Part shown: positions 1,586 through 24,269 of the stretch, piece after piece
Layout of the letters: each line of letters opens with the position of its first letter
Position numbering within the stretch: the first letter of the stretch is position 1
Assembly (NCBI RefSeq): GCF_004364935.1
Contig: NZ_SOBT01000013.1
Coordinates: forward strand, 1-64,000
From: Panacagrimonas perspica
GTDB taxonomy: Bacteria; Pseudomonadota; Gammaproteobacteria; Nevskiales; Nevskiaceae
Reading direction: 5' to 3'
Length of the DNA stretch: 64,000 nt
Position numbers and translations under genes: made by a program
The notes under the pieces: model-generated
Databases searched by the model: none
What the model was told of the DNA's origin: nothing
Seen by the model: the letters and a program-made list of their open reading frames with translations, nothing else

Positions 1586-4500
1586 CTACTGTCGCACGCG
1601 GGTGGCGCCTTGGGTCGCTTCGAGTTGCTCGACCTGTTCGCGATAGGCGGCTGTCGCGATTTGCACGGCTCGTGTCAGCTCGTCGGGCTGCCCCGCGATG
1701 CATGCGTCCGCCACCGCTTCACAGGCCGATGCAGTCGATGCGGCGCCAATCAATTCGCAGTGGGCCTTGAGCGCAAGCGCTTCGCCGCGCAAGCGGGGCA
1801 TGTCATGCGCATCGCAGGCCTGTTGCAGCGACGCCAGTGCCGGCTCGGCGCCGGAGACGATTTCGTCGACCACGTCGGCCGCTCCTTCGCTGCCGATCTG
1901 ATCGATCAGCCATGTCAGCGCAGACGCTTTTGCAGAACCTTGCTCGGCTCCGGCTTCGAGCAGAGGCTGCGACGCGGTCTCGACCTGCGCCAGCACTTCT
2001 TCCAGCTCGCGGCGACGGAAGGGCTTGGCGAGGTGGCGATCCATGCCGGCGTCCAGGCAGGCCTGCCGCTCGTTGTCGAGCACGCTGGCGCTCATCGCGT
2101 AGATGCGCGGTTGGCGCAGGCCGGGGAGCTGGCGGATGCGGCGCGTGGCTTCGAGTCCATCCATGACCGGCATCTGCACGTCCATCAGCAGCAGGTCGTA
2201 GGGCCGCTGTTGCACGGCCTGCAGCGCGGCCGCACCGTTCTCGGCCAGATCGGCGGAATAGCCGAGCGATTCGAGCATGCGCAGGCCCACCTGCTGGTTG
2301 AGCACGTTGTCCTCGACCAGCAGGATGCGCAGCGGCAGTACAGGCGAGGACGCCCGGACGGTCGGCGACAGATGGCCGGCGGCGCCTGCGGCGCCGGCCA
2401 GCATGTCCAGCAGCGCATCGAGCAGGCCGGCACGTCGCAACGGCTTGAGGCAGACGCGATCGAAGTCCGGCAGGTCCTGCGCGCGCTGACGCACGCTGCT
2501 CAACAGCATCAGCCGCGGCTGGCGCGAACTGTCGAGCTGGCGGATGCGCGCCGCCAGCTCGATGCCGTCGATGTCCGGCATCAGGTAATCCAGGATCGCG
2601 AGATCGAAGTGTTCGCCGCGCTGGAGCATCGCCAGGGCCTCCCGCGGCGACGCCGTATCCACCACCTGCATGCCCCACTCGGCGGCGCTGGAGCGCAGGA
2701 TGCGGCGATTGGTGTCGTTGTCGTCCACCACCAGCAGGCGCTTGCCCTGCAGCGCGCCGCTATCGGCCTGCGGCGGCGCCGTCCAGGCGGGATCGGTGCC
2801 GGCGACGAACGTGAACGAGAACACCGAGCCGCGCCCCGGATGGCTTTCCACCGCGACGTCGCCGCCCAGCAGTTGAGCCAGGCGCTTGCAGATCGCAAGG
2901 CCCAGGCCGGTGCCGCCGTAACGCCGCGTGGTGGACGCGTCGATCTGGCTGAACGTCTTGAACAGGCGGTCCATGCGGTCGGGCGCGATGCCGATGCCGG
3001 AGTCGCGCACGGCGATCCGCAGGCGATGCTGATGGGGACCGAGCGCGGTGGAGGAAACCTCGACCGACACATCGCCGCTGTCGGTGAACTTCACGGCGTT
3101 GGAGAGGTAGTTGACCAGGATTTGGCGTACCCGGGCGGGGTCGCTGTGCAACATCTCGGGCGTGCCGGGTGCGAAGTCGCAGGCCAGGTCCAGGCGCTTG
3201 CGCGCGGCATTGACCGCCACCCATTCGAGCGCTTCCTCGACGGTGCGACGCAGATCGAAAACCTGTTCGTCCAGTTCCAGCAGCCCGGCTTCGACCTTGC
3301 TGAAGTCGAGAATGTCGTTGATCACGCTGAGCAGGTGATCGCCGCTCTGCGTGATGGTGTCCAGGCCGCGCCGCTGGTCCGCATCCAGGCTCGTGTCGCC
3401 CAGCAATTCCGCGGTGCCGAGAATCGCGTTGAGCGGCGTGCGGATCTCGTGACTCATGTTGGCCAGGAAATCGCTCTTCGCCTGATTGGCGGATTCGATC
3501 GCGTTCTGTGCCTTTGCCAGCACGGCCGCCTGCTGACGCCAGCGCGCGCCCGCCTGGGCGATCACCAGCAGCAGCAAGCTGGCAAGCACGCCGCCCAGCG
3601 CTACGAGCCAGGGCGCCACCCGGTCGGCGATGCTCGCGAACTGCGGCGGCGCGACGGCGTGCAGCGTCCACTGACGGCCGGGCAGGCTGATCGTCGAGTA
3701 GCTTTCGAATGGGCCTCGTGCTGATTCGGGCAAAGGCTTCGGCTCGCCATCGGCGGCCTGGCCCGCGGTGGAATAGAGCAGGCGCTCCGGCGTCAGGTCG
3801 TGGCTGTCGTAGAGCGCAAATTTCAGCTCGCTCGGCGCCTGGTTCATCAGTCCGCGCATGAAGTATTCCGCGACGAACGTCGCGGTCAGCCAGCCCAGCA
3901 GCTTCTCCTCGCGACGCACCGCCAGAAAGCCGATGAAACCCACCTGGGTGCCAACAGCCTGCAACAAGCGCAGGCGCGGTGTCAGCACCGCGTCGTTGCT
4001 GGCGGCGGCCGCCTCCAGCATCGCCTTGCGTCCCGCGTCCTGCATCATGTCGATGCCGATGGCACGCGCATTCGATACCGTCAGCGGCTCGGTATAGAAC
4101 ACCGGCGCATGCAGTTGGGATTTGACCGGAACGATCGGCGGCGGCGGCGCACGCAAATGGAATTCGCGCAGCAGTGCCGGATCGGACAGGCCTGGCGGCA
4201 GGGGCTCGCTCCGCGCGCGTGCGATGAAATCCGCAAGCGCTTCGTCGCTCACCGCCGGAGCAAAGGTCAGCCCGCGAAAGCCCGGGTACAAGCGCTCCAG
4301 TTGCAGCGACTCGACGTAGCGGCGCCAGTCCCCGCGGGTGACTTCGTCGGAGGCGGCGAACAGGCCCAGCCCGCCGCGCAGCACCTGCACGTAGGCGGCC
4401 AGGCGCCGTTCGATGGCCGACTCGATGCGTCGCACTTCGGCGTCGAACCGCGCTTGCTGATGCTGCGCAATCAATGCGTGCGACTGCCACGCGCCGACGA

Positions 4501-4597
4501 GGCTGGCCGCCAGTACCGCGAACGCCAGCACCCAGGTCGACGCCGACACGCGCGTGGAAATCGATGCCCTCATCGGATCAGATGCGCCGGAGTTCAT
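1586..4597 (-). CDS. CHASE1-domain hybrid sensor histidine kinase with degenerate HPt
   Basis: This 1003-residue inner-membrane sensor starts with a TM segment, then a periplasmic CHASE1-like sensor ([16 protein letters not shown]), and a second TM near residues 330-350. HisKA carries His383 in [10 protein letters not shown] and is followed by HATPase_c ([12 protein letters not shown]). Two receiver domains follow, the first with LLVVDDND and [11 protein letters not shown], the second with [20 protein letters not shown] and AKPF. A C-terminal HPt-like helical domain has lost its phosphorylatable histidine: the usual AHxLKG reads ALALKA, with Leu941 at the His position. The start lies 20 nt inside the upstream HPt gene, implying translational coupling. 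That neighbour has an intact HPt and probably supplies the missing relay step. Confidence 0.92.
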
Positions 4598-5321
4598 CGT
4601 CCAGTCGTTCGATCAATGCGGAATACCGGGCCAGTGCCTGCGCGCCGAGTTCGGCGGCTTCCGTAGATCCTTCGAGGGCAGCGTGTTCGGCGCTCGCGAG
4701 GAGCCGCGCGAGATCTTCGGCGCCCAATTGAAGGCTGGCGCCGCGCAGGCTGTGCGCAATGCGCTTGAGGCCGGGGAAGTCATGCGACTGTATGGCCTGT
4801 GCCTGTCGCGCCCGCGTCGTCGGCAGGTCGTTTCGCAGCGCACCCAGCAGTTCCGCGACGCCTGTGGGTCCGAACAGCCTCAGCAGTTCGGACCAGGTCG
4901 CGCCCGAGAAATCGTCCGGCGGAGCATCACCGGGAAGGCGCCGGCGCTGAAGGGCAGCGGATAGCGGCTCGAGACTCAGCGGCGTGCCCAGCACGTCGTC
5001 GTATCGGTTCTTCGGAATGCCCTGCAGGTCAGAGGGCGCCGCACGGATCGTGATGATCCACGGCAGCGTCGTCGCCGACGCGTCGTCGCGCGGCAGCAGC
5101 CTGGAATCGACGAGCCACACATCGGCAGGGAATTCCGGCATCGCGGCGATCGCTGCGTCCCAGCCCTGCACCCGATGCGGTGCTGGATGGCCCAGTCTCT
5201 GGATCAGTCTTGCGGCGAGCACCGCCTGAACCGGGTCGGTGGTGGCCAGCAGTATTCGGAGCGGCGCTGCGTTCACGCGTTTGACGGATCCGCGAAAGGA
5301 CCCTGATTCTGCACGTCTCAC
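4578..5321 (-). CDS. Degenerate receiver plus HPt phosphotransfer protein
   Basis: This 247-residue cytoplasmic protein is first in the phosphorelay operon. The N-terminal half folds like a receiver ([30 protein letters not shown]). It lacks the DD pair of the acidic pocket (ATTD), and the conserved lysine reads GTP instead of KP, so phosphorylation is doubtful. The C-terminal half is a canonical HPt domain with His190 in [19 protein letters not shown]. The family shuttles phosphate between hybrid kinase receivers and a final response regulator. The start is the upstream GTG; an internal GTG at RVNAAP is an alternative. The gene overlaps the kinase gene by 20 nt. Confidence 0.8.
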
Positions 5322-5831: not shown

Positions 5832-7181
5832 TCACGAATTCTGATCGCCTTGCGCCCCGATGCGGTAGCGCCGCATCAGCTTGTAGAAGTCGGTGCGGTT
5901 GCGGCCCGCGATGCGAGCCGCGCGACTGACATTCCCCTCAGCGAGCCGCAGCGTCTGCCGCAGGTAGTTCTGTACGAACTCGTCGCGCGCGTTGTCCAGC
6001 GAGGGCATAGAGGATTCGTGTTCACCCAGCGCCCGGCGCACCAGCAGGCTGCTGATCACCCGGCCCGGCGACAGCGCCACGGTCTGCTCGACGACGTTGA
6101 ACAACTGCCGCACGTTGCCGGGCCACGCGAACGTCAGAAGCTGCTCCATCGCCTCGGGCGAAAAAACGCGCCGCGGCACGCCGCATTCGGCCAGCTGCGT
6201 CAGGCGATGCGCGACCAGCAGCGGGATGTCCTCGCGTCGCTCCACCAGCGCCGGCAGGCGCAGCTGCACGACGTTGAGCCGGTAGAACAGATCCTCGCGG
6301 AAGCTGCCTTCGGCGATCATTGCCGGCAGGTCGCGATGCGTGGCGGACACCACGCGAACGTCGATCGGAACGGAGCGCAATTCGCCGACCGGGCGCACCT
6401 CGCGCTCCTGGAGCACGCGCAGCAGCTTGGACTGCAGGCGCTCGGGCATGTCGCCGATCTCGTCGAGGAACACCGTGCCGCCCTCGGCCGACCGGAACAG
6501 ACCCGGGTGATCGTAATTGGCGCCGGTGAACGCACCACGACGATGGCCGAAGAGTTCCGACTCCAGGAGTTCGGGCGGCACCGCTGCGCAGTTGATCGCC
6601 ACCAGCGGCCGGCCGCAGCGGCCGCTGGCCTTGTGCACGGCGCCGGCGAGCAGCTCCTTGCCGCTGCCGCTGGGGCCGCAGATCAGCACGGCCGAGTCGT
6701 GACGCGCGATGCGGCGCGCGTCGTGCAGCACGGCGCGCACCAGCGGACTGTGCGTGACGATGCCGTCCATGTCCTGGCCGTCGACCTCGTATTCGCGCGA
6801 CTGGCGGACGTGGGCTTCGACGCAGGTCAGGAGTTCCGCGCCGACGGGCTTGGTCAGGAAGTCGACGGCGCCGGCCTGCGTGGCGCGCACCGCGTCGGGG
6901 ATCTCGCCGTGGGCCGTCAGGATGGCGACGGGAATGCCGGGCGTTCGTTTCTGGATCGCCTCCAGCAGCTCGATGCCGCCGATACCCGGCATGCGCAGGT
7001 CGGTGATGACCATGTGGGGCTCGGCGTCCGGAAGCTTTTCGCAGGCCTCTTCTCCGCAGGATGCTGCCGTGACTTCGTAGCCAGCCGACTCCAGCCGCAG
7101 CGTCAGCACGCGGCGAAGGTTGTCGTCGTCGTCGACGACGAGGATGCGGCCCCGGGTGCTGGGCGCGATATCAGCGTCCAT
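5832..7181 (-). CDS. glrR: Sigma-54-dependent response regulator GlrR (QseF)
   Basis: This 449-residue NtrC-family activator has a receiver with Asp61 (VITDLRMPG), [16 protein letters not shown] and TKPV. The central AAA+ domain has Walker A GPSGSGKE, the sigma-54 contact loop GAFTGA, Walker [13 protein letters not shown], and WPGNVRQL. A Fis-type helix-turn-helix closes it ([22 protein letters not shown]). These blocks match E. coli GlrR closely. GlrR is phosphorylated by GlrK and opens sigma-54 promoters from TGTC-N10-GACA boxes; in enterics the target is the sRNA gene glmY. The start overlaps the lipoprotein gene by 11 nt. Exact boxes of this kind lie just beyond glrK, in front of algD. 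Confidence 0.93.
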
Positions 7182-7593
7182 TTCCCATCTCTCTTTCGAT
7201 CTGGATGATGCGGTTGAGTTGCGAACGAAGCTCGGTCGCCTCGGACTGACACGAGCGGTTCCGCTCCAGTTCCACGAGGCGGATCCGCACCAGGATCGCC
7301 TCGTCATCGCGCAATCCGCGGCGCTGCAGATTGCGCAATGCATCCTGCGACGCCTCGGGCGTTTCCGTTTCGGTGCTGCCGGGCAGGCTGCGCAGCATCG
7401 CGACCTTCCACGCCGACTTGCCCTGGCGCGCGCTGCGGAGCATCGACTCCCGAGCGGCGGGCGAGGCGTCGACCGCACGGCCCCACCAGACCAGCGCCCC
7501 ACTGGCGTCCGATGCCGAGGCTCCGCCCGATTCGCCGGGCACCCACTGCAGGTGAGAGCACCCGCTCGAAAGAAAGGCCGCGCTAATGAGCAT
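7171..7593 (-). CDS. QseG-like lipoprotein between glrK and glrR
   Basis: This is a 140-residue lipoprotein. The chosen ATG at 7593 starts MLISAAFLSSGC, a short signal with lipobox and acylated Cys12. It overlaps the glrK stop codon (ATGCTCATTAG) and follows GAG. The mature part is mostly helical, ending in a Glu/Arg-rich segment ([19 protein letters not shown]) that may form a coiled coil. Sequence similarity to enteric QseG cannot be judged by eye. The order kinase-lipoprotein-regulator is that of glrK-qseG-glrR, where QseG sits in the outer membrane and activates the kinase. The assignment therefore rests on synteny plus the lipobox. Confidence 0.75.
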   Translation of the reverse strand: MLISAAFLSSGCSHLQWVPGESGGASASDASGALVWWGRAVDASPAARESMLRSARQGKSAWKVAMLRSLPGSTETETPEASQDALRNLQRRGLRDDEAILVRIRLVELERNRSCQSEATELRSQLNRIIQIEREMGNGR

Positions 7594-9109
7594 CGGTCTC
7601 AGGGCACGGCCAGTCCAGGACGAAGCGCGCTCCAGGCTGGGCTTCCTGCACTTCAAGTTTTCCTCCATGTGCGATTACCGTTTCATTGACGATGGACAAC
7701 CCGATTCCGGTCCCCCGCATTCCTGCCTCTTCCGGCTCGGAACCACGAACAAACGGCTGAAGAATTCTTTCGCGCTCGCCGATGGGAACGCCCCGGCCCC
7801 GATCGCGCACCGACAACACGCAGCGACCGTGCCGACAATCGACCAGCACGTCGATGGTGCTTCCCCGGGGCGCGTGCTTGACTGCATTGCTCAGCAGATT
7901 TCCGAGCGATACCCGCAGGCTCCAGCGATGCCCGTACAGATGCGGCGCGTTCAGGTCCAGATGGGTGTCGAGGCTGCGCTTGGCCAGCGTGAGCCGCTGC
8001 GAGGCAAGAACTTCCTCCACCAGGATGCGCGAATCGATCCAGCCCATCTCGACGTCGCGCTGCCCGCGTCGCCACTCGGCATACGTCAACAGGTTGCGGA
8101 TCTGTGCATCGAGATCGATCGCCGACTCGGCCAGGATCTGCGCCACTTCGGATTGACGCGAGTTGAGCGTGCCGAACGAACGTTCCAGCAGCAGGTCCGT
8201 CCCTTCGCGCAGGCTGGCCAGCGGTGTCTTCAGCTCATGGGACACATGGCGAAGGAAGCGATCCTTGTCAGCCTCCAGATCACGCAGCCTTCGGCGCAGC
8301 CATTCGAGCTTTTCGCCGACGCGCGCCAGCTCGCGCGGATATTCGATGGATATCGGCGACTCGTAGTTCGCCGTGCCCAGCGCGGTGATCGCGGCGCGCA
8401 TGTTCTGCAGCGGTCTGGCGATGACGCGGGACAAACCCAGCGTCAGCGCGATCGTGAGCAGCGCCACGATGATCACCGAAAGTGCGAGGACATTGCGCAC
8501 CAGCACCGAGCGATCGTTGAGCTGGCGAACCTGCCCGTAAATGTCGACCCGGCCCTCGTCGATGACCCGCTCGGCCTTCTCGGCGAGCGCGCGGATTTCG
8601 CCCACGCGCTGCACGCCGTCCGCGGAGCCGAGTCCGCGTTCGATCTTGTCGAGCCCGGCGGTGACGGCACGCGAGTGGTCCTGCACTCCCTGCGGCAGAT
8701 CGTCGGCGGAGAATCGCGTCGTGGCCTCGCGCGTGCTTCGCAGACGCTGTCTGATGATATCGAGCAGGGCAGGGTCCTGGAGCGCGTAGTGCTGCAACGC
8801 GACGCGCTCGAGATCTTCGAGTTCGGTGCGCAGCGTAGCGCCGTACACCTCGATCTTCTGACCTTCTCCCACCAGTTGTTCGCCGCGCAGCAGCAGGCGA
8901 TCGAGCGCGAAGCCCATGACGACCAGCATCGCCACCAGCGGTGCCATCGCCAGCACCTTGCTGGTGGCGACGAGGCCGACCATCGTCTTCGGCAACAGAT
9001 GACGCACCACGAGCTGGCGCAGCGCGACGCGAAAGGCAGCGAATCTTCCTCGCGGTGCTTCGGTCACCTGCACCGCATCGGATGAAGCCGTCTCTGCCGT
9101 CATCGTCAT
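7583..9109 (-). CDS. glrK: Sensor histidine kinase GlrK (QseE)
   Basis: This 508-residue inner-membrane kinase has two TM segments (about residues 55-75 and 205-225) flanking a helical periplasmic domain. A HAMP region follows (SRVIARPLQNMRAAITALG), then HisKA with His291 in RHVSHELKTPLASLREG, and HATPase_c with N-box SLRVSLGNLLSNAVKHA, DRGRGVP and GTGIGLSIV. It phosphorylates GlrR in the family's known pathway. ATG at 9109 is preferred over far-upstream in-frame starts because the TM-containing core begins shortly after it and AGGA lies upstream. It opens the glrK-lipoprotein-glrR operon and is transcribed divergently from algD across a 543-bp control region. Confidence 0.92.
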   Translation of the reverse strand: MTMTAETASSDAVQVTEAPRGRFAAFRVALRQLVVRHLLPKTMVGLVATSKVLAMAPLVAMLVVMGFALDRLLLRGEQLVGEGQKIEVYGATLRTELEDLERVALQHYALQDPALLDIIRQRLRSTREATTRFSADDLPQGVQDHSRAVTAGLDKIERGLGSADGVQRVGEIRALAEKAERVIDEGRVDIYGQVRQLNDRSVLVRNVLALSVIIVALLTIALTLGLSRVIARPLQNMRAAITALGTANYESPISIEYPRELARVGEKLEWLRRRLRDLEADKDRFLRHVSHELKTPLASLREGTDLLLERSFGTLNSRQSEVAQILAESAIDLDAQIRNLLTYAEWRRGQRDVEMGWIDSRILVEEVLASQRLTLAKRSLDTHLDLNAPHLYGHRWSLRVSLGNLLSNAVKHAPRGSTIDVLVDCRHGRCVLSVRDRGRGVPIGERERILQPFVRGSEPEEAGMRGTGIGLSIVNETVIAHGGKLEVQEAQPGARFVLDWPCPETDAH

Positions 9110-9231
9110 CAGGATCCTGCGCTCCGATGTCGGGGTGATGGCGTTTTGCGTGGTCACGCGTGCGCAAAGCCGGAAAGCATTGCAAATGTCCCGCACGATC
9201 CGAAGCGGTTCTCGCAGCGATTCTCGACCGC

Positions 9232-9249
9232 TGTCGCCTGATAGAGACA
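9232..9249. promoter_or_regulatory. GlrR box 1 (distal), TGTC-N10-GACA
   Basis: The sequence TGTC GCCTGATAGA GACA is an exact copy of the GlrR consensus known from enteric glmY. It lies about 350 bp upstream of the predicted algD start site and 123 bp from the glrK start codon, so it could serve either direction. Confidence 0.7.
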
Positions 9250-9416
9250 AACCGGGCCGCGTCGAACGCGATCCACGCGAAAGTGCGGGACATGCCGATC
9301 GGCAATCCCGCTGCCCTTCCACGTCGCGTCGGCAGTCTCGACGCGCAATGCGCGATGGGCCCGCGCAAACCTCAGAGGTGTCTGACGCCGATTGGCGACA
9401 GGAACAGATTTCCTCG

Positions 9417-9429
9417 AATCAATCACTTG
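9417..9429. promoter_or_regulatory. IHF-consensus site
   Basis: AATCAA TCAC TTG fits WATCAA-N4-TTR without mismatch. It lies between the two GlrR boxes, about 160 bp upstream of the predicted start site. IHF bending usually brings enhancer-bound activators to sigma-54 polymerase. The motif is short, so chance is possible. Confidence 0.5.
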
Positions 9430-9449
9430 AACACGTCCCGACAAGGATC

Positions 9450-9467
9450 TGTCTCTGATCGCAGACA
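9450..9467. promoter_or_regulatory. GlrR box 2 (proximal), TGTC-N10-GACA
   Basis: TGTC TCTGATCGCA GACA is a second exact match to the GlrR consensus, about 115-130 bp upstream of the predicted algD transcription start. This is a typical enhancer distance for a sigma-54 activator. Confidence 0.75.
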
Positions 9468-9553
9468 GTTTTGCCGTCTGCACTCACTGCAATGTGGTCG
9501 CCGACGCCTGACCAGCAGATTAATTACGCGAAAACCAAGGGGTTTTTCGACAT

Positions 9554-9570
9554 TGGCACCGCCGTTGCCA
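9554..9570 (+). promoter_or_regulatory. Sigma-54 (-24/-12) promoter of algD
   Basis: TGGCAC-CGCCG-TTGCCA matches the sigma-54 consensus TGGCAC-N5-TTGC. The invariant GG and GC are 12 bp apart. Transcription should start near 9580, giving a leader of about 73 nt. Confidence 0.8.
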
Positions 9571-9652
9571 TGTGTGGTGGCGAAGGGAGGACGCAGGCCT
9601 GCACGAATACGGGCAGCCGGCGCACCCACGATCCACATCAGCGAGGGAACAC

Positions 9653-10963
9653 ATGCGCATCAGCATTTTTGGTCTGGGCTACGTCGGTGCGGTCTGCGCC
9701 GGCTGTCTGTCGGATGCAGGTCACGAGGTCATCGGCGTGGACGTATCCGCCATCAAGGTGGATCTGACCAATCGCGGCAAAGCGCCGGTCGTCGAGCCGG
9801 GTCTCGAGGCCATTCTCGAAAAGCAGGTCGCGCTGGGTCGTCTGCGCGCCACGTCGGACACCGAAGACGCCGTCCGCAGTTCGGATCTGACGATGATCTG
9901 CGTGGGCACACCGAGCCGCAAGAACGGCTCGCTCGATCTTCGCTACATCAAGAAAGTCTGCAAGGGCATCGGCGCGGCGCTGGCGAAGAAGGCGACGTAC
10001 CACACGGTCGTCGTGCGCAGCACGGTGCTGCCCGGCACCGTTCGCAAGCACGTGATTCCCCTGCTCGAGGAAGCATCGGGCAAGCGCGCGGGCGAAGACT
10101 TCGGTGTGGCGATCAATCCCGAGTTCCTGCGCGAGAGCACCGCCATCAAGGATTATCTCGAGCCGCCGATGACGGTCATCGGCGAGTTCGACGAGCGCTC
10201 CGGTGAAGCCCTGGCGTCGTTGTATGCACCGCTCGCCGCGCCGCTGATCCGTCGCTCGATCGAGATCGCGGAGATGGTGAAGTACTCGTGCAACGCGTGG
10301 CATGCCGTGAAGGTGACGTTCGCCAACGAGATCGGCGCCATCGCCAAGTCTGCGGGCGTCGACGGTCGCGCCGTCATGGAGATCGTCTGCGCCGACACCA
10401 AGCTCAACATCTCGCCCTACTACATGAAGCCGGGCTTCGCGTTCGGCGGCTCCTGCCTGCCCAAGGATCTGCGCGCACTGGTGTATCGCGCCAATCAGCT
10501 CGACGCCAACGCGCCGATGCTCAGCTCCGTCCTGCGCAGCAACAAGGAGCAGGTCGAGAAGGCCGTGGAACTGATCGCCGCGTTCGGCAAGCGCCGCATC
10601 GGCCTGCTGGGACTGAGCTTCAAGGCCGAGACCGATGACCTGCGCGAGAGCCCGCTGGTGGAACTGGCCGAGACGCTGATCGGCAAGGGCTACGAGCTGA
10701 GCATCTTCGATCGCAACGTCGACTACGCCCGCGTGCACGGCGCCAACCGCGATTACATCAACCAGAAGATCCCGCACGTCTCCTCGTTGCTGAACTCCGA
10801 TCTCGACGCCGTCATCGAGCATGCCGAAGTGATGATCGTGGGCAACCGCGACTCGCAGTTCGCCAAGGCGCTCGCCAACGTCAACGGCAGCCGTCCCACG
10901 CTCGATCTCGTCGGCTTCATGAGCGGGGTGTCGCACGGCCACACCCAGGGCATCTGCTGGTAA
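9653..10963 (+). CDS. algD: GDP-mannose 6-dehydrogenase AlgD
   Basis: This 436-residue cytoplasmic enzyme oxidises GDP-mannose to GDP-mannuronate with two NAD, the committed step of alginate synthesis. It has the same length as the Pseudomonas enzyme and nearly the same blocks: MRISIFGLGYVGAVCAGCLS (NAD-binding), VVRSTVLPGT, NPEFLRESTAIKDY, the catalytic GFAFGGSCLPKD with its Cys, GLSFKAETDDLRESPLVEL, and the terminal QGICW. ATG at 9653 gives the exact family N-terminus and follows GAGGGA. It is the first gene of the operon behind the sigma-54 promoter. UDP-glucose dehydrogenases share the fold, but the terminal sequence and neighbours exclude that. Confidence 0.97.
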   Translation: MRISIFGLGYVGAVCAGCLSDAGHEVIGVDVSAIKVDLTNRGKAPVVEPGLEAILEKQVALGRLRATSDTEDAVRSSDLTMICVGTPSRKNGSLDLRYIKKVCKGIGAALAKKATYHTVVVRSTVLPGTVRKHVIPLLEEASGKRAGEDFGVAINPEFLRESTAIKDYLEPPMTVIGEFDERSGEALASLYAPLAAPLIRRSIEIAEMVKYSCNAWHAVKVTFANEIGAIAKSAGVDGRAVMEIVCADTKLNISPYYMKPGFAFGGSCLPKDLRALVYRANQLDANAPMLSSVLRSNKEQVEKAVELIAAFGKRRIGLLGLSFKAETDDLRESPLVELAETLIGKGYELSIFDRNVDYARVHGANRDYINQKIPHVSSLLNSDLDAVIEHAEVMIVGNRDSQFAKALANVNGSRPTLDLVGFMSGVSHGHTQGICW

Positions 10964-10987
10964 GGCCGGACAAGGACTCCAGATCCC

Positions 10988-12472
10988 ATGGGCAAAGCGT
11001 TCAGTGCCGTCGCGACCTGGTCGGGCTGGCTGTTCTTCCTGGCCGCGCTGGCGACGCTGGCGGTGCTGCTGCCGGACAGTGCCTTCGACAAACGCAACGC
11101 CCACTACTGGGTCGCGCTGGGATCGATCGGGCTGTGGCGCTACACGCTCGGTGCGATTCATTTCGTGCGGGCGATGATCTTCCTGCATTACCGCTTCCCG
11201 AAGATCCGTCGTCAGACCGCGGAGCTGCAGGCCCGCGGTCTGCCGTCGGCGCCGGTGTATCTGATGGTCACGAGCTTTCGCATCGATACGACGACCTCCG
11301 CGGCGGTGTATCGCTCCGTGATCCAGGAAGCGATGGCCTGGACGGGCAAGGCGACCATCGTGGCCTCGATCGTCGAGATGGCCGACGAGCAGATGATCAA
11401 GATGCTGTGGGATCGCCACGCGCCGCCCGAGAACGTCCGTCTGCTGATCGTGCGCATTCCGGGAACGGGCAAGCGCGACGCCCTGGCCCAGGGCTTCCGC
11501 GCGATCTCGCGCGACATGCCCGAGGACGACGCGCTGGTGGCGGTCATCGACGGCGACACCGTGCTGGATCCGGGTGTGCTGTCCAAGACGGCGCCGTACT
11601 TCCGCACGCGTCCGAACATGGGTGCGCTGACCACCAACGAGTACTGCAACGTCCAGGGAAGCTACCTGATGCAGGAGTGGCACCGCCTGCGTTTCGCGCA
11701 GCGCAATCTCAACATGTGCTCGATGGCGCTGTCGCATCGTGTGCTGACGCTGACCGGTCGCATGTCGATGTTCCGCGCCAGCATCGTCACCAGCCCGGAG
11801 TTCATCCGCGATGTCGAGTTCGATCATCTCGACCACTGGCGCCTCGGCCGCTTCCGCTTCCTGACCGGCGACGACAAGTCGAGCTGGTACAGCCTGATGC
11901 GCCTGGGCTGGGATACCTGGTACGTGCCGGACGCGTCGATCACGACCGTTGAGCATCCGCCCGACAAGAACTTCGTCCGGGCCAGCCGCAAGCTGATGTT
12001 CCGCTGGTATGGAAATTCGCTGCGCCAGAACCAGCGCGCGACGCGACTGGGCTGGAAGCGTCTCGGTGGATTCACGTGGTACGTGCTGCTCGATCAGCGG
12101 ATCTCGATGTGGACGAGCCTGCTCGGCATCTCGGTGGCGCTCTGGGGTTCGCTGCTCTATGGCCCGGCCATGCTGATGGGCTACCTGCTGTGGATCGGCT
12201 GCTCGCGCTTCGTGCTCACGCTGCTGCTTGCGTTCTCCGGCCACCACATCGGTCCATCGTTCCCGACGCTTCTCTACTACAACCAGATCGTCGGCTCGCT
12301 GACGAAGATCAAGGTTTCGTTCCACCTCGACCAGCAGTCGTGGACGCGCCAGGACACCCGCCTGCGACGCGATCTCGAGCCCTGGCAGGCGCGCTTCAAC
12401 CGTTGGTCTTCTCCCGCACTGCTGGCGTCCAGCGCCTGCATCTTCGCGGCCGTTGTCGTGAGCGTGATCTGA
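10988..12472 (+). CDS. alg8: Alginate polymerase catalytic subunit Alg8
   Basis: This is a 494-residue inner-membrane family 2 glycosyltransferase of the same length as Pseudomonas Alg8. Two N-terminal TM helices (about 10-28 and 40-62) precede the cytoplasmic domain, which has DGD at 188-190, TGDDKS with Asp295-Asp296-Lys297, and LRQNQRATR in place of QxxRW. Further TM helices follow (about 365-420 and 470-494). It polymerises mannuronate from GDP-mannuronate while threading the chain through the membrane. Partner Alg44 is encoded next and supplies c-di-GMP control. Confidence 0.96.
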
Positions 12473-12497
12473 CCCGATTCGATCCGAGGAATTAGCA

Positions 12498-13688
12498 ATG
12501 AACAGTCGTACCGTCACCGCTGCGAACCTGGTCCATGAATCCGAAACGCAGCGGCAGCACGTCCGCGCCAAGGTCCCCGGCCTGCTCGAAGTCGCGCTGC
12601 CCGGAGGCGTCAGGAACTTCCGCCTCTGCGATCTATCGGGAGGAGGTCTGGCCTTCGAGCCCAAAGGACACCCGTTCCAGGTGGGCGACCATCACGCGGG
12701 CCGCATCCATCTCAAGCTGGAGACCATCAGCGTCACGGTCCCGGTGCGTTTCGACGTGCGCTCGGTGAATGCCGCCGATGGCCGCGTCGGCGTGCGGTTC
12801 GAGCAACTCGATCCCACGGCGATGTCCACGCTGCGCCGCGTGATCGCAGGCTTCCTCGGCGGCGAACTGATTGGCGCCGGCGAGTTGATGCACACGCTGT
12901 CGCGCAACAATTTCACGCAGCCGCGCAGCCCCAAGGAAGCCGTCCAGCACCGCGGCTTCGCCTCGAAGGCCCGGGCCTTCGCTCAGACCTCGCTGATCCT
13001 GGTGATCGGCGCAGGCGCTCTGCTTTACACCGGTCATCGCGTGACCGAGAAGCTGTTCGGCGCCAACTCCTCGGCGGCCCGCGTCAGCGGTCCGCGCTTC
13101 CAGGTGGAGATGCCGCGTGACGGCGTCTTCCGCAGCCTGGTCCCGGAAGACGGCATCGTGAAGAAAGGCAGTCCGATCGGCTCGTTCGAGACCTCGATGT
13201 TCGGCCTGGTGAACATGCAGGCGCTGGAAGCGCAGCTCACGCCCGAGGAAGTCGCCCAGCTGCTCGGACGCGAGATCAAGGGCACCGTGACCAGCCCCTG
13301 CGACTGCCGCGTCACCGCCACGTACGCGGCGGACGGACAGTTCGTCGGCAAGGGTCAGCAGATCGCCGACCTCGCGCCGCTCGAATTCGAACCCTACGTC
13401 GTCGCCCGCTTCGGCTTCCGCGAAGCCGAGCAGCTGTTGCCCGGCACGCCGGTCAAGTTGCGCATCAACGGCGATCCGCTGGCGCGCACCGGTCACGTGA
13501 CGCAGCTGCGCCACGACGGCGATCCCGATGCCCTGAGCCAGGACGTCGTCGTGATGATCAAGCCCGAAGAGCCGTTGTCGATGGACCTGATGAGCCGTCC
13601 GGCCGAAGTCAGCGCTGCCGGAAATTCCTGGCTGTCCGCGGAGGGCCTCACCCCTTTTTCTTCGGCCCGCGCTGAGGCCAAGCCTTGA
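12498..13688 (+). CDS. alg44: Alginate c-di-GMP receptor Alg44
   Basis: This 396-residue protein has an N-terminal cytoplasmic PilZ domain with the c-di-GMP ligands Arg19 and Arg23 (QRQHVR) and Asp45/Ser47 (DLSGGGLAF). One TM helix follows (about 160-178, SLILVIGAGALLYTG), then a periplasmic HlyD-like domain (GTVTSPCDCRVTATYAADGQ). It binds c-di-GMP and switches on Alg8, and the periplasmic part may link to AlgK/AlgX. CGAGGA lies 7 nt before the ATG. The stop overlaps the algK start (TTGA). Confidence 0.95.
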   Translation: MNSRTVTAANLVHESETQRQHVRAKVPGLLEVALPGGVRNFRLCDLSGGGLAFEPKGHPFQVGDHHAGRIHLKLETISVTVPVRFDVRSVNAADGRVGVRFEQLDPTAMSTLRRVIAGFLGGELIGAGELMHTLSRNNFTQPRSPKEAVQHRGFASKARAFAQTSLILVIGAGALLYTGHRVTEKLFGANSSAARVSGPRFQVEMPRDGVFRSLVPEDGIVKKGSPIGSFETSMFGLVNMQALEAQLTPEEVAQLLGREIKGTVTSPCDCRVTATYAADGQFVGKGQQIADLAPLEFEPYVVARFGFREAEQLLPGTPVKLRINGDPLARTGHVTQLRHDGDPDALSQDVVVMIKPEEPLSMDLMSRPAEVSAAGNSWLSAEGLTPFSSARAEAKP

Positions 13689-15079
13689 AATCGGCGCTGC
13701 CCGCGTTCGCCCTGGCGGGATGCGCTGCGCTGGCCGCGACGTCGGCGTGGGCGCTGCCGGATCTGGCGCGCGGTCGCGCGGCGGCGGACCGGGGTGACGT
13801 CACGGCGGCCGAGGCGGATCTGGTTCCGCTGGCCGAACGCGGGTACCTCGAAGCGCAGACGCGGCTTGCGCGACTGTACGGATCGCAGGACACGCCGGAG
13901 AGCATCTCCAAGTCCGTCGAGTGGGCGCGCCTTGCGTCCGAGCAGGATCCGGCGATGCGTACCGTGCTCGCGCGCGGCCTGATGCGCATGGGCCCGGCGG
14001 GCGATCCCGCCGAGATCGACCAGCTGCTGCAGGAACTGGTCTCCGACAACGACACTGCGGCGCGACCGCTGCAGCTGCGGCTTTATCGGGAACTGCCGCA
14101 GCTCGCCGACCGGCAGAAGGTCGCGGTGCTGGCGCAGACCGTCGCGGCGAGTCCGATCGTCGAGGAGCGCGCCGAGGCCATCGCCTGGTATCGCGCCAAC
14201 CGCGAAGCCGATCCGGGCTACGAGAACGCACTGGTCACGATGTGCGAGAAGGATCGCAAGCAGGTCGAGGAATGCTACGCGGATCTGTCGCGCTACTTCC
14301 GCAAGACCAATGACGCCGAAGGCCAGAAGCGCCTGCGCAAGGAACTGGTCGAGCGATTCGAGGGCGGGAAGGTCTCGGACGTCGCGATCGAGCGCGTGGC
14401 TCGAAACCTCTCCGCCGACGATCAGGGAGGCAAGGCAGACGTGCCCGCCGCGTACGCCCTGTTCATGAAGATCAAGAATCCGTCTCCGACCGTCACCGCA
14501 CGCAAGGCCCGACTGCTGATCCAGCAGCCCGCCCTCGATCCGGGTGCGAAGCCCGAGGAGATGCTGAGGGATGCGTACGCCAAGGGCTCGCTCGAGGCGG
14601 CGCTGCAGCTCGGTCGCATGTACATGGACGAGGTGAATCCTTCTGCCGACGCCACGGAAGCAGCGCGCCTGCTCAACGAGGCGCTTCCGGCATTCCCGTC
14701 GGCCCACGTCTGGATCGGACGCCTGTACGAGCGCGGCTATTACGGACTGCCCGAACCGAAGAAAGCGCTCGAGCATTACCTGGCGGCAGCACGAGTGGGC
14801 AATCCGAACGCGGATTACGCACTGGCACGCATGTACACCGTCAATCGCGGCGTCAAGGTCGACCCGGTGCTCGCGTACAGCTTCGCGAGCATCGCCGAAA
14901 GCGCCGGGCATGTCGGCGCAGCGGAAATCACGACGCAGCTGAGATCGACGATGACGCCGCAGCAGTTGGCGCGTGCCCAGCAGATCGCCCACGCAGAAAC
15001 AGCCGCGCGCCAGGCTGCGCTGGCACTGCCGCAAACCGACGCGGCGCGTGTGGCCGCTGTAGGGGAGAAGAATCCATGA
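13685..15079 (+). CDS. algK: Alginate export scaffold AlgK
   Basis: This 464-residue periplasmic protein is made of TPR/SEL1-like helical repeats, for example EGRLYERGYYGLPEPKKALE-type and YALARMYTVNRGVKVDP-type units. AlgK is an outer-membrane lipoprotein that helps assemble the AlgE pore and bridges to the synthase. The N-terminus MKSALPAFALAGC offers a lipobox with Cys13 but is short; a signal-peptidase I site after SAWA is an alternative. The start is TTG at 13685, inside the alg44 stop, with TGAGG about 7 nt upstream. Coupling on both sides (ATGA with algE) supports one operon. Confidence 0.9.
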   Translation: MKSALPAFALAGCAALAATSAWALPDLARGRAAADRGDVTAAEADLVPLAERGYLEAQTRLARLYGSQDTPESISKSVEWARLASEQDPAMRTVLARGLMRMGPAGDPAEIDQLLQELVSDNDTAARPLQLRLYRELPQLADRQKVAVLAQTVAASPIVEERAEAIAWYRANREADPGYENALVTMCEKDRKQVEECYADLSRYFRKTNDAEGQKRLRKELVERFEGGKVSDVAIERVARNLSADDQGGKADVPAAYALFMKIKNPSPTVTARKARLLIQQPALDPGAKPEEMLRDAYAKGSLEAALQLGRMYMDEVNPSADATEAARLLNEALPAFPSAHVWIGRLYERGYYGLPEPKKALEHYLAAARVGNPNADYALARMYTVNRGVKVDPVLAYSFASIAESAGHVGAAEITTQLRSTMTPQQLARAQQIAHAETAARQAALALPQTDAARVAAVGEKNP

Positions 15080-16641
15080 AGAACAACAAGAAGAAGCTCG
15101 CCGTATTCGCTGCCGCGATGTTCGCGGCGCCCGCTGCGGTTCCGGCCGATCCGGCGCTCGTGGCGCCGGGAGATCCCGTCGCGCCCGCCGAACCGGCGCC
15201 CATCGAATCGACCGGGGCCGAGCCTGCGCCCGTCGACGCGGTGGTGTCCGAATCCGTCGCCGATCCCGCGCCCGCCGATCCGCTGCCAGCCGGCACGGTG
15301 CCTGCCGGCTGGCAGACCGAGCTGCGCGTGGGAACCGGCCTGTTCGCGGAAGGCGAGCGCGATCTTGGACTGGGCCTCGCCGAAGAGACGACCGAAGGCT
15401 TCGCCGACGTGCAAGGCACGGTGTACTGGAATTCCGGTGAAAACTGGGCGGCGCTGACCCGCGCCCAGGTGTTCGCGCCCACCGGCGAACTGGTGGTCAC
15501 CGACGAAGATCAGCCGCGCGACAGCAAGTCGTTCGCGCGTCTTCGCGAGGCCTGGGTCGAGTATCGCGGCCTGACGAGCTATCCGGGTGAGTCGATGCGC
15601 GTGGGCCTGCAGCGGCTGCGCGACCCGGACGGACAGTGGTTCGACCAGAACATCGAAGCGGTCCGCTGGATGTTCGACACCACGCTGTTGCAAGCGGACG
15701 TCGGCGCGGCCGAGTCCTTCATCACCTGGCGTTCCGACGGTTCCGATCCGCGATCGAATGTTCGCGATCGCACCTATGTCTTCGGACGGCTGGGCACGCA
15801 GTGGACGCAGAGCCAGTTCGTCGGCGCCCGTGCGATCCACGCCTTCGATCACGCGGATCCCGAAGAGGAAGTGCTGTCGGAGGAACGTGATCCGAAGCTG
15901 GCCGACCGCAATCTCACGTGGATCGACGTCTACGCGCACAACGGCTACTACGATTCGAACGGCAAGCCCGGCATCTCGTACTGGGCGGATTTCAGCGCGC
16001 TCGTCGGTGATCGCAAGGACTACACGCCGTCCACCGATCCACTGACGCCGGCGTCCACCGAGAAGACCGACGTGCGCGCCTGGGCCACGGACCTGGGCCT
16101 GCGCTGGCGGCTGCCGACGACGTTCCCGCTGCAGATCGGCGGCAACTACGCGTTCGGCTCGGGCAGCGAGGACGGTGACACCGAGCACCGCTACGAGCAG
16201 ACCGGCCTGCACAGCAACCAGTCGCGCTTCACCGGCACGCGCAGCCAGGTCTATCGCTACAACGGTGCGCTGCAGGCCGAACTGACCAATCTGCACGTGG
16301 GCACCGTGTACCTGTCGATCCCGCACGATCGCTGGGATGCGAGCCTGATCTACAGCAAGTTCGCGCGTCAGCACGCCAATGATCCGATCGTCGCCGATGG
16401 CCTGAGCATTCAGCCCGAGCCCGGCCGCAAGGCGCTCGGCGACGGCGTCGATCTGGCGCTGGCGTACTACTTCGCCAATCCGGTGGGTCGCGGGCGCAGC
16501 ACCGTCACCGCCACGCAGGAAGACGACAACTTGCGCTCGAACATCCGCCTGCGCGCGTCCGCGTTCGATCCGGATGCGGCGTTCCCCGATGGCGCGGATC
16601 CGAAGTACCTGGTGCGGCTGGAGCTCACGCTGTGGTTCTGA
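15076..16641 (+). CDS. algE: Alginate outer-membrane porin AlgE
   Basis: This 521-residue protein has a Lys-rich signal peptide (MKNNKKKLAVFAAAMFAAP) and a C-terminal barrel with the terminal aromatic signature LVRLELTLWF. Internal blocks such as REAWVEYRGLTSYPGESMRVGLQRLRD and QWFDQNIEAVRW-type segments are typical of the family's 18-strand alginate exporter. Between signal and barrel, about residues 22-75 form a Pro/Ala/Glu-rich low-complexity linker (VAPGDPVAPAEPAPIE), which makes the protein longer than the Pseudomonas one. It secretes alginate with AlgK. The start overlaps algK by ATGA. Confidence 0.93.
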   Translation: MKNNKKKLAVFAAAMFAAPAAVPADPALVAPGDPVAPAEPAPIESTGAEPAPVDAVVSESVADPAPADPLPAGTVPAGWQTELRVGTGLFAEGERDLGLGLAEETTEGFADVQGTVYWNSGENWAALTRAQVFAPTGELVVTDEDQPRDSKSFARLREAWVEYRGLTSYPGESMRVGLQRLRDPDGQWFDQNIEAVRWMFDTTLLQADVGAAESFITWRSDGSDPRSNVRDRTYVFGRLGTQWTQSQFVGARAIHAFDHADPEEEVLSEERDPKLADRNLTWIDVYAHNGYYDSNGKPGISYWADFSALVGDRKDYTPSTDPLTPASTEKTDVRAWATDLGLRWRLPTTFPLQIGGNYAFGSGSEDGDTEHRYEQTGLHSNQSRFTGTRSQVYRYNGALQAELTNLHVGTVYLSIPHDRWDASLIYSKFARQHANDPIVADGLSIQPEPGRKALGDGVDLALAYYFANPVGRGRSTVTATQEDDNLRSNIRLRASAFDPDAAFPDGADPKYLVRLELTLWF

Positions 16642-18230
16642 GCCGAAGCCTGCCGCTCGCGCTGCGCCGCGTGCTGGTGCTCTTCCTGCTGCCGGCGAGC
16701 ATGGCCCTGGCAACCGCAGCCAAGCCCAAGCCCTCCGACGACGGCATCGACGATGAGGCGGGCCTCAAGGCGCCGCCGCAGGTGGGCAAGTACATCGTGC
16801 GCGAGGCGTCGCTCGAAGGGCTCGCCGTTCCGACACCGAAGCTCCCGGACCTGGCGCCGTTCACCGCCGAGGCGGTCAACGCCAAGATCAAGACCAAGCC
16901 TGCCGGGCACATCCGTTACGAGCGTCTGGTCGAGGCGGTGGAACTGACGGAGTTCACGGGCAGCGACGGACGCATCGTCGAGTGGGCAGCGCGCCAGCCC
17001 TCCAATCCTCGCGCGATCGTCATCGATGGCGGCTACATGACGCCGCACGATCTGGCCAAGGCGCTGCCCAAGGAGCACTTCGAGGAGACCTCGGAAGGCG
17101 TCTTCGTGCTGCGTATGCCGCTGATCGTCGCGCACGGTGCAACGCTGCACATCGACAGCAAGACGCGCGAGTTCCGGATGTCCGAGGAGCGCGGCGCGTT
17201 CCTCGTCAACGACGGCAAGCTCTTCATCACGCAGAGCGCGTTGCTGGCCTGGCGCGAAAAGGCCAACGGCCCGGCGACGTTCCGCGACGCGGCGCAGTTC
17301 CGGCCGTTCCTGCTTTCCTGGGGCGGCACCGAGACCTACATCGTCGGCAGCAAGGTCAATCATCTGGGTTATGCGAAGAGCAAGTCCTACGGCATCTCGA
17401 TTTCGCAATACAGCCCGTCGATTGCGGATCGCATGAAGCGCTCGCATCCGACTGGATGGCTCATCGACTCGGAGTTCCACGACAACTGGTACGGCTTCTA
17501 CTGCTACGAGGCCGATGATGTCGTCATCGCACGCAACGTCTACCGCGAGAACATCCTGTACGGCATCGATCCGCATGATCGGTCGCGACGCCTGATCATC
17601 GCGGAGAACGACGCGTACGGAACCAGGAAGAAGCACGGCATCATCGTGTCGCGCGAGGTCAACGACAGCTGGATCTTCCGCAACCGCAGCCACGCCAACG
17701 CGCTGTCCGGCATCGTGCTCGACCGCTCGAGCGTCAACAACATCGTGGCCGACAACACCACGTTCGGAAACGAGTCGGACGGCATCACGATCTACGAGAG
17801 CAGCGACAACCTGCTGCTGAACAACCACAGCGTCGGCAACAAACGCCACGGCATCCGTGTGCGCAACAGCATGCGCCTGCGCCTGTACAACAACCGCTGC
17901 ATCGGCAACGGATCCAACGGCGTCTACGGTCACATCAAGGATCTGACGGGAACCGATCGCGATCTTGCGCTCGACCCGTTCCAGCAGAACGTCTCGCTGG
18001 TCGTCGTCGGCGGACAGCTGACGCACAACCGCAGCGGTCCGGTGGCCATCGACAGCCCGCTGAGCCTGGAGCTCTACGACGTCAACCTGCTGGCGCCGAC
18101 CAAATCGGTCGGCTTGAAGATGGTCGGCATCCTGGGCGAGCTGCAGGCCGAAGTACTGGATCTGCTCGTGCGCAAGCGTGTGCCCGTCGTCATCGAACCG
18201 GCCACCGGCGCCGGTCGTGAAGGAACCTGA
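16632..18230 (+). CDS. algG: Mannuronan C5-epimerase AlgG
   Basis: This 532-residue periplasmic enzyme converts some D-mannuronate residues to L-guluronate in the polymer. GTG at 16632 overlaps the algE end by 10 nt and gives a signal peptide (LRRVLVLFLLPASMALATA). The C-terminal half is a right-handed parallel beta-helix (CASH/NosD repeats: GIDPHDRS, HGIIVSREVNDSW, SGIVLDRSSVNN, DGITIYESSDN). The catalytic DPHD motif is Asp313-Pro-His315-Asp316. The N-terminal half resembles the Pseudomonas AlgG lead domain. The protein also protects alginate from AlgL during transit. Confidence 0.95.
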   Translation: MVLSRSLPLALRRVLVLFLLPASMALATAAKPKPSDDGIDDEAGLKAPPQVGKYIVREASLEGLAVPTPKLPDLAPFTAEAVNAKIKTKPAGHIRYERLVEAVELTEFTGSDGRIVEWAARQPSNPRAIVIDGGYMTPHDLAKALPKEHFEETSEGVFVLRMPLIVAHGATLHIDSKTREFRMSEERGAFLVNDGKLFITQSALLAWREKANGPATFRDAAQFRPFLLSWGGTETYIVGSKVNHLGYAKSKSYGISISQYSPSIADRMKRSHPTGWLIDSEFHDNWYGFYCYEADDVVIARNVYRENILYGIDPHDRSRRLIIAENDAYGTRKKHGIIVSREVNDSWIFRNRSHANALSGIVLDRSSVNNIVADNTTFGNESDGITIYESSDNLLLNNHSVGNKRHGIRVRNSMRLRLYNNRCIGNGSNGVYGHIKDLTGTDRDLALDPFQQNVSLVVVGGQLTHNRSGPVAIDSPLSLELYDVNLLAPTKSVGLKMVGILGELQAEVLDLLVRKRVPVVIEPATGAGREGT

Positions 18231-18242
18231 GGGAATTCGAGC

Positions 18243-19700
18243 ATGGTCTTCTCGTCCAACATCTTCCTGTTCGCCTTCCTGCCGCTGTTCCTGGCGATCT
18301 ATTTCGCCTGCCCGAACCGCTACCGGAACTGGGTCGTGCTGCTGGGTTCCTACGCGTTCTACGCGTGGTGGCGCGTCGACTTCCTGTTCCTGTTCATCGC
18401 CGTCACGGCCTGGAACTACTGGATCGGCCTCGGCATCGCGCGCTGCGGTGCGAAGACCGAGGGCGCGAAGCGCTGGCTGATCCTGGGCGTGGTCGTGGAT
18501 CTGGCGGTGCTGGCCTACTTCAAGTACGCCAACTTCGGCGTCGACAGCTTCAACGCGATGATCGCGGGCACCGGCATGGAGCCGTTCGCGTGGACCGCGA
18601 TCATCCTGCCCATCGGCATCTCGTTCTACACGTTCGAGTCGATCAGCTACATCGTCGACGTGTATCGCGGCGACACCGAGCCCACGCGTCACCCGGTCGA
18701 CTTCGCCTGCTTCATCGCGCTGTTCCCGCACCTGATCGCCGGCCCCGTGTTCCGCTACAAGGATCTCGCGGACCAGTTCACGAATCGCACGCACAGCGTC
18801 GACAAGTTCTCCGAAGGCGCGATGCGCTTCATGCAGGGCTTCATCAAGAAGGTCTTCATCGCCGACTCGATCGCGCCGATGGTGTCGGCGGGCTTCGCGC
18901 TGCAGGACCCGAGCACCGCGGACGCCTGGCTGACGGCGCTGGCCTACACGGCGCAGCTCTACTTCGACTTCTCCGGCTACAGCGACATGGCGATCGGCCT
19001 GGGCCTGATGATGGGCTTCCGCTTCATGGAGAACTTCAACCAGCCCTACATCAGCCAGAGCATCACCGAGTTCTGGCGCCGCTGGCACATCAGCCTGTCG
19101 AGCTGGCTGCGCGACTATCTGTACGTGCCGCTGGGCGGCAATCGCGGCGGCACGTTCAAGACCTACCGCAACCTGTGGCTGACGATGGTGCTCGGTGGCC
19201 TCTGGCACGGCGCCAACTGGACCTTCGTGCTCTGGGGTGTCTGGCACGGCACGATCCTGGCCATCGAACGCGCGCTGGGCATCGGTACCGACCTGAAGAC
19301 GCCGTGGCGCGTCTGGCGCTGGGCGCCGACGTTCCTGTTCGTGATCCTCGGCTGGGTGATGTTCCGCGCCGAAAGCGTGCATGAGGCGGGACGCTTCTAC
19401 GCTGCGATGTTCTCGTTCGACGGACGCGGCGTCAGCGACGTCTACGCCGCGGGCATCGACTCGCTGCAGATGTACACGCTGCTGCTCGCCTACGTCGTGC
19501 TCGCCATCGCGGGCTGGATGAGCCGCCGGCCGTCGGCACCCGAGCATCGGCAGGGCGAACTGGTCGGCGGTGGATCCGCGCTCGGCGTGCTGACGACGCG
19601 CGACGTGGTGCTGACCGCGCTGGTGCTGCCGCTGTTCGCACTCGCGGTGCTCAAGCTCTCGGCTCAGAGCTACTCGCCCTTCCTCTACTTCCAGTTCTAG
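18243..19700 (+). CDS. algI: Alginate O-acetyltransferase AlgI (MBOAT)
   Basis: This 485-residue polytopic inner-membrane protein of the MBOAT family has the signature FPHLIAGPVFRYKDL and the catalytic histidine His322 in GGLWHGANWTFVLWG, the same number as in Pseudomonas. It passes acetyl groups across the membrane to AlgJ/AlgX for O-acetylation of mannuronate. It starts 12 nt after algG, with a GAGGGA-type site upstream. In Pseudomonas algI follows algX-algL; here it comes directly after algG, so the acetylation module has a different place in the operon. Confidence 0.96.
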   Translation: MVFSSNIFLFAFLPLFLAIYFACPNRYRNWVVLLGSYAFYAWWRVDFLFLFIAVTAWNYWIGLGIARCGAKTEGAKRWLILGVVVDLAVLAYFKYANFGVDSFNAMIAGTGMEPFAWTAIILPIGISFYTFESISYIVDVYRGDTEPTRHPVDFACFIALFPHLIAGPVFRYKDLADQFTNRTHSVDKFSEGAMRFMQGFIKKVFIADSIAPMVSAGFALQDPSTADAWLTALAYTAQLYFDFSGYSDMAIGLGLMMGFRFMENFNQPYISQSITEFWRRWHISLSSWLRDYLYVPLGGNRGGTFKTYRNLWLTMVLGGLWHGANWTFVLWGVWHGTILAIERALGIGTDLKTPWRVWRWAPTFLFVILGWVMFRAESVHEAGRFYAAMFSFDGRGVSDVYAAGIDSLQMYTLLLAYVVLAIAGWMSRRPSAPEHRQGELVGGGSALGVLTTRDVVLTALVLPLFALAVLKLSAQSYSPFLYFQF

Positions 19701-19710
19701 GAATCCGGCC

Positions 19711-20847: not shown

Positions 20848-20862
20848 AGCAGGAGAGCGCAG

Positions 20863-21561: not shown

Positions 21562-21578
21562 CGCTCCGGAGCCGAACC

Positions 21579-24244: not shown

Positions 24245-24269
24245 ACGACTCGGCAAAAGGCGAAATCCG

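Follow-up and report, generated by a model that had tools for sequence, protein, structure and literature searches.

A predicted GlrR-dependent sigma-54 promoter of glmY-like build in front of the alginate operon of Panacagrimonas perspica

The alginate operon of Panacagrimonas perspica is very probably driven by a GlrR-dependent sigma-54 promoter built like the enteric glmY promoter, a reading drawn from sequence comparison, in which the two-component system GlrK/GlrR would itself switch on production of a polymer. This was the central proposal of an earlier note on the same stretch of DNA, and it gains support from a conserved promoter module, found in relatives together with GlrR, in the 64,000-nucleotide (64-kb) stretch analysed here (the window) and beyond it. 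Parts of the wiring are known already: in Pseudomonas aeruginosa, algD is under NtrC-family/RpoN control through AlgB (available portions of PMC4064291), and GlrR acts together with IHF at the sigma-54 promoter of glmY. GlrK/GlrR is known from enterics, with the small RNA GlmY and rpoE as its targets there (PMC6075780, in the text available). No link between GlrR and alginate turned up in the open-access literature (most subscription journals lie outside that search), and the publications that name both GlrR and alginate do so, in their accessible parts, in unrelated places. Alginate is thus apparently a target of GlrR so far undescribed, in line with the earlier note, whose author knew of no account of such wiring.

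The genes glrK (minus strand) and algD (plus strand) diverge and lie 543 bp apart, and their coordinates agree with the note's placing of the promoter elements, all read here on the plus strand, between the two. A distal GlrR-type box at 9232-9249 (TGTCGCCTGATAGAGACA) and a proximal one at 9450-9467 (TGTCTCTGATCGCAGACA), the latter 104 bp upstream of the -24 element, match TGTC-N10-GACA exactly; these two had been counted and correctly positioned before, and a third, the middle box at 9383-9400 (TGACGCCGATTGGCGACA; one mismatch, 171 bp upstream of the -24 element), had been overlooked. Between the middle and proximal boxes lies the exact IHF-type site that had been claimed at 9417-9429 (AATCAATCACTTG, matching WATCAANNNNTTR), and the sigma-54 -24/-12 element (TGGCACCGCCGTTGC) is a perfect TGGCAC-N5-TTGC that begins at 9554 as described and ends at 9568, the end given earlier, 9570, having taken in two flanking bases. 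Judged by the usual sigma-54 start distance, transcription would begin within the region 9569-9652, which would give algD a leader of about 73 nt. The IHF-type site at 9417 (0.22 expected) and the -24/-12 element at 9554 (0.13 expected) are the only exact matches of their kind in the window, and the boxes at 9232 and 9450 are its only two exact TGTC-N10-GACA sequences; two such sequences per 64 kb are unremarkable, with 27 of 100 shuffled versions of the full window containing at least two, and the genome (5.40 Mb) contains 80 against 44 for a reversed control pattern. At the genome's own box density 543 bp would be expected to hold 0.008, and the probability of at least two is about 3e-5, which bears out the remark in the earlier note that chance would rarely put two exact boxes in this gap.

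This is the arrangement of a glmY-type promoter, with boxes at a set distance from a -24/-12 element. In Escherichia coli, QseF/GlrR with IHF activates glmY through three such sites (PMC6075780, as far as its available text goes), and in Proteus three putative QseF sites and two putative IHF sites are given in the accessible part of PMC8745638. The E. coli K-12 glmY sequence has exact boxes at -230, -197 and -134 from the glmY start and a -24/-12 element with one mismatch at -27, and so, like the window, it sets three TGTC-N10-GACA-type boxes before a -24/-12 promoter; the -24 element is preceded by the middle and proximal boxes at 171 and 104 bp in the window and at 170 and 107 bp in E. coli, an exact IHF-type site stands between the corresponding two boxes in both, and in both the glrK-lipoprotein-glrR locus adjoins the promoter. 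The two differ in target, which is a large polysaccharide operon in the window and a small RNA in E. coli, in orientation, the operon being divergent from glrK unlike E. coli glmY, and in the distance from distal to middle box (151 bp versus 33 bp).

The regulator gene that we call glrR (also qseF; 5832-7181, minus strand) encodes a response regulator with receiver, sigma-54 AAA+ and Fis-type helix-turn-helix (HTH) regions, the first two of which match Response_reg and Sigma54_activat over the Pfam cut-offs; the Pfam search gave no HTH family match, and the HTH is visible in the alignment to E. coli GlrR. Its best NCBIfam match is GlrR (NF011695) at 544 bits, 146 bits above the runner-up NtrC (398), and it falls short of the curated NF011695 cut-off of 763 bits, which was seemingly built on enterics, so the assignment to the GlrR type is made on grounds of identity, locus and binding sites and not on the cut-off. 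Identity to E. coli K-12 GlrR is 54.6% over 436 amino acids, the C-terminal HTH included, compared with 37-46% for other proteins in the genome that span receiver and AAA+ and up to 51% for matches to the AAA+ region only; one GlrR was found in the genome, whose closest named relative, judged by GlrR, is a Panacagrimonas sp. bin (L035; Nevskiales, Nevskiaceae), with 88% identity over residues 1-315. The membrane sensor histidine kinase gene glrK (qseE; 7583-9109, minus strand) has HisKA and HATPase_c domains over the cut-off and a HAMP domain just under it, and its product is 29% identical to E. coli GlrK (E 3e-44). Between them, in the order glrK-lipoprotein-glrR known from E. coli, lies a small gene (7171-7668, minus strand) with a lipobox-like start, whose product had no Pfam or NCBIfam match and no BLASTP match to E. 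coli QseG at E 0.01 and which occupies the place of qseG, being QseG by position only. Just downstream of glrR, at 1586-5321, lie two genes, one for a large hybrid histidine kinase and one for a smaller protein that looks Hpt-like by eye, a pair that is a possible further signal input. RpoN and IHF-alpha score over their cut-offs in all 17 genomes tested. The genome of the window has three rpoN genes over the family cut-off (C1:177620, C1:515162 and C2:327552).

On the other side of the gap algD (9653-10963, plus strand), assigned to GDP-mannose 6-dehydrogenase from its UDPG_MGDP_dh domains, a nucleotide-sugar dehydrogenase match (NDP-sugDHase, TIGR03026) and its position, leads an alginate operon whose remaining genes run from alg8 to an algC-like gene over 10988-27919 on the same strand, in the order alg8, alg44, algK, algE, algG, algI, algJ-like, algF, algX, algL, an open reading frame (ORF) at 24270-24815 that has no Pfam match, algA and algC-like. 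AlgG (NF038177) and AlgA (TIGR01479) match over their NCBIfam cut-offs, Pfam adds Alginate_exp, MBOAT, ALGX (twice), AlgF and Alginate_lyase, and alg8, alg44, algK and algC were named by resemblance and position without a library match. The genes for AlgG, AlgE, AlgX/AlgF, AlgL and AlgA are thus clustered with algD, and the whole would presumably be read as one transcript.

Conservation in relatives that keep glrK next to the alginate genes had been proposed as a check, and there the boxes and the -24/-12 element are indeed kept in front of the operon. A search for Alg8 in 85 genomes of the order gave 21 with a match, 19 of them with a strong one (E 2.5e-176 or better); G032 and G020 were left out for contig ends that leave no readable DNA upstream of algD, which gives 17 genomes, and G008, a second place in G010 (Alg8 39-41% in both, no AlgD in the stretch) and G017 (E 4e-7) were excluded from the count of alginate operons. 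Eleven of the 17 have GlrR (E<=1e-120) and six have none among the candidates scored (for example 73 of 106), an absence that is uncertain in G015 (88) and G025 (89) because these genomes are less than 90% complete. We defined a strict module as two boxes and a -24/-12 promoter at set spacing, in place of a looser one-box pattern, and a module stands upstream of the first alginate gene in 11/11 genomes with GlrR (10 strict and one, L104, relaxed, with a two-mismatch box and 113-bp spacing) and is absent over the whole stretch read in 6/6 genomes without it (Fisher p 8e-5, or 6e-4 for the strict form alone, both with related genomes treated as independent and uncorrected for kinship). The proximal box lies 102-104 bp from the -24 element in all 10 strict alginate promoters, the middle and proximal boxes are 66-69 bp apart in nine of them (81 in L107), and all 11 aligned promoters have a -24/-12 element with at most one mismatch; the DNA around the module aligns poorly from genome to genome, the box spacing being nearly fixed. 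The distal box has a counterpart in the same place in L101 (exact) and L103 (one mismatch), and its spacing to the middle box differs among genomes.

The module also follows the head of the operon and outlasts its neighbourhood with glrKR. Where algA comes first (G010, G041, G042 and G046 with a strict module, G023 with the relaxed one), the module lies before algA and the operon is again divergent from glrK (L104-L108), the second gene being algC in four of the five and algD directly in L107. In four further genomes (L103, L109-L111) glrR is on another contig, no glrKR was found in the 3.0-14.4 kb read upstream of algD, and in three of these the DNA around glrK (L192, L193, L198) is without any of the alginate genes sought, and still the module stands before algD, which means that it is not merely a by-product of synteny. 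More distant GlrR loci (L036-L039) showed no alginate genes in the 11-17 kb examined. The IHF-type site is plausible and the weakest part of the reading: with zero or one mismatch it is present at one or other of two positions in 6 of the 11 alginate promoters, namely between the boxes in the window and in same-genus L101 (exact in both) and 32 bp upstream of the -24 element in L103, L109, L110 and L111, and L104-L108 have no such site, so that the exact match reported in the earlier note stands for the window and its position is kept only in the one same-genus relative with readable DNA.

A scan of all 4-mer dyads with spacers of 4-16 in the 11 alginate promoters of GlrR-containing genomes leads to the same motif. 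TGTC-N10-GACA ranks first, present in 11/11, and the second-ranked dyad, GGCA-N7-TGCC (10/11), is the sigma-54 element. Over 100 shuffles the top dyad, whatever its sequence, was shared by 4.07 promoters on average and by 7 at most, and TGTC-N10-GACA averaged 0.07. The motif is absent from a control set of five alginate promoters of genomes without GlrR, and the sixth such genome has no exact box in 5 kb upstream of algD. In five genomes the scan regions were placed with knowledge of the -24 element (L105, L107) or the algA start (L104, L106, L108), so the scan is unbiased for the motif and not for the region.

The strict module is also rare. It occurs once in the genome of the window and once each in 13 of the order's 85 genomes, with 0/85 for a reversed-pattern control, and the 13 comprise the 10 alginate promoters and three places beside glrKR (G058, G059, G083). 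The looser one-box pattern matched 36 of the 85, and since its reversed control matched many too it served only to find candidates. In a class-wide sample the strict module was found in 7 of 377 genomes and the reversed control in none; two matches are alginate promoters (G000, G060), one lies by a glrR (G165, L229), and the other four (L230 in G443, L231 in G149, L232 in G422 and L233 in G175) show neither GlrR nor GlrK in the 3.2 kb read, so the strict pattern is not perfectly specific. L231, which lies inside ORFs, may be a chance match, and for G422 no GlrR was found elsewhere in the genome.

Outside the order, 14 genomes with alginate genes had readable upstream DNA (G598, with 86 bp only, was dropped); 13 of them lack both GlrR (E<=1e-100) and the module, and G240 is the one discordant case, with a GlrR (52%), a distant alginate cluster (Alg8 48%) and no module. 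Twelve alginate-bearing genomes from a single other order, which we take to be Pseudomonadales, have no exact box in 1.2 kb upstream of algD (364 bp in G611), no strict module in the stretches read and no GlrR at E<=1e-100. Single one-mismatch boxes lie upstream of algD in L113 and L211. Four of the alginate-bearing genomes without GlrR (L113, L115-L117) carry a weak TGGCGC-N5-NTGC at a constant place about 150 bp before algD, perhaps another sigma-54 promoter.

The conservation of the module, its spacing, its co-occurrence with GlrR and the rank of its dyad together make direct activation of the alginate genes by GlrK/GlrR through sigma-54 the most likely explanation. GlrK, on some inducing signal, would phosphorylate GlrR, probably under tuning by the lipoprotein encoded between glrK and glrR; GlrR would then bind the middle and proximal boxes (9383 and 9450), the distal one (9232) serving as an auxiliary site, and IHF would bend the DNA so that GlrR reaches RNA polymerase with sigma-54 at 9554-9568. 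ATP hydrolysis by GlrR would open the promoter, and algD and the alginate genes downstream of it would be transcribed. The genome encodes other sigma-54 activators, one of which could use this promoter.

The strongest competing account, which we consider quite improbable, is that the boxes serve autoregulation of glrK and that algD is driven mainly by an AlgB-like sigma-54 activator or by AlgU. The gene glrK does share the region, the distal box lying about 120 bp from its start, and P. aeruginosa offers a precedent, AlgB/RpoN, IHF and AlgU all acting at its algD (PMC4064291, in the portions available), where KinB/AlgB likewise brings an NtrC-family regulator, RpoN and IHF together. Yet the box spacing is nearly fixed to a -24 element that points at the alginate operon, and the module remains before algD in the four genomes with glrR on another contig; and the regulator beside the operon in the window scores as GlrR where P. 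aeruginosa uses AlgB, there being no AlgB model among the 25 NCBIfam matches listed. As for AlgU, the window has no promoter of its type with fewer than three mismatches to the consensus GAACTT-N16/17-TCTGA up to 600 bp from algD, the best matches there having three; the five alginate promoters scanned from genomes without GlrR each have one match with two mismatches, which may be no more than chance. GlrR may regulate itself in addition to controlling the alginate genes.

Still less probable is an indirect route in which the module drives a GlmY-like small RNA lying between promoter and algD. The window shares its layout with the E. coli glmY promoter, and glmY adjoins glrK in E. coli, but the 84 bp between the -12 element and the algD start codon leave little room for such an RNA, and in the algA-led operons the module lies right before algA. 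A GlmY-like RNA was also sought in the gap itself, and no Rfam family matched within 8500-11000 at E values up to 1. That the matches are chance and without function is hardly credible, common as the pattern by itself is in shuffles of the window and in the genome, given the conservation, the spacing, the joint absence with glrR and the counts from reversed-pattern controls and shuffles.

If the direct GlrK/GlrR reading is right, a regulator and a rigid promoter layout have been kept while the target became a whole polymer operon, and since layout and regulator are jointly absent where alginate is kept without GlrR, the system is a clean natural case of regulatory rewiring that offers a testable route to alginate control outside pseudomonads. 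It also hints at an older role of GlrR in envelope glycans. GlmS (via GlmY) and AlgA would both draw on fructose-6-phosphate. In E. coli a further GlrR/sigma-54 target is rpoE, with a part in envelope homeostasis (PMC6075780, available text); there GlrR works via an envelope sigma factor, and in the window its target would be the polymer operon directly. Sigma-54 has been tied to exopolysaccharide genes generally in a study of its genome contexts, which lists QseF-like activators and AlgB apart (PMC3162934, in the part available), and in floc-forming bacteria PrsK/PrsR with RpoN provides NtrC-type control of exopolysaccharide and PEP-CTERM genes (PMC9850573, accessible portions), a case that differs from the window in regulator family and in polymer.

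More broadly, GlrK/GlrR might be a general envelope-glycan switch in this order and some other gammaproteobacteria, one promoter module having moved between targets by lineage (alginate, TackOD1-GGDEF/glycosyltransferase/HlyD, MdoG, BON/EF-hand) with glmY as a derived case, a proposal on which our own judgement is evenly divided. Nineteen glrR regions were examined, nine of them picked for a match to the looser pattern, and the remaining 10 showed no convincing module beside glrKR, so the wider claim about envelope targets is a reading and not a count. Next to glrKR, a strict module lies before a BON-domain protein in G058 and before an EF-hand protein in G059, and one-box matches of the looser pattern are followed by a BON protein in G064 and by an EF-hand protein in G081; for the strict module of G083 by glrKR, and likewise for the one-box match of G002, no target gene could be named. 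Of the other one-box matches, that in G049 stands before a TackOD1-GGDEF protein, after which come a family 2 glycosyltransferase and an HlyD-type protein; the first gene is similar in G050, and in G036 the match precedes a cluster with a TackOD1 protein and a nucleotide-sugar dehydrogenase about 4 kb from glrK.

Several side observations concern the same regions. Near glrKR, GlrR-type promoters are followed by BON-domain and EF-hand proteins in L182 (8149-8757), L183 (6346-7029), L179 (5555-5893) and L185 (4888-5172), and a GlrR-type box with a -24/-12 element is followed by TackOD1 proteins in L181 (5602-11980), L180 and L187 (4899-6470), the TackOD1/glycosyltransferase/HlyD group of L181 forming an uncharacterised polysaccharide-like cluster. 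In G165 (L229) a strict module at 1501-1694, downstream of a glrR-like gene with 51% identity, lies directly before mdoG (597 bits, ORF from 1707), a gene of periplasmic glucan synthesis.
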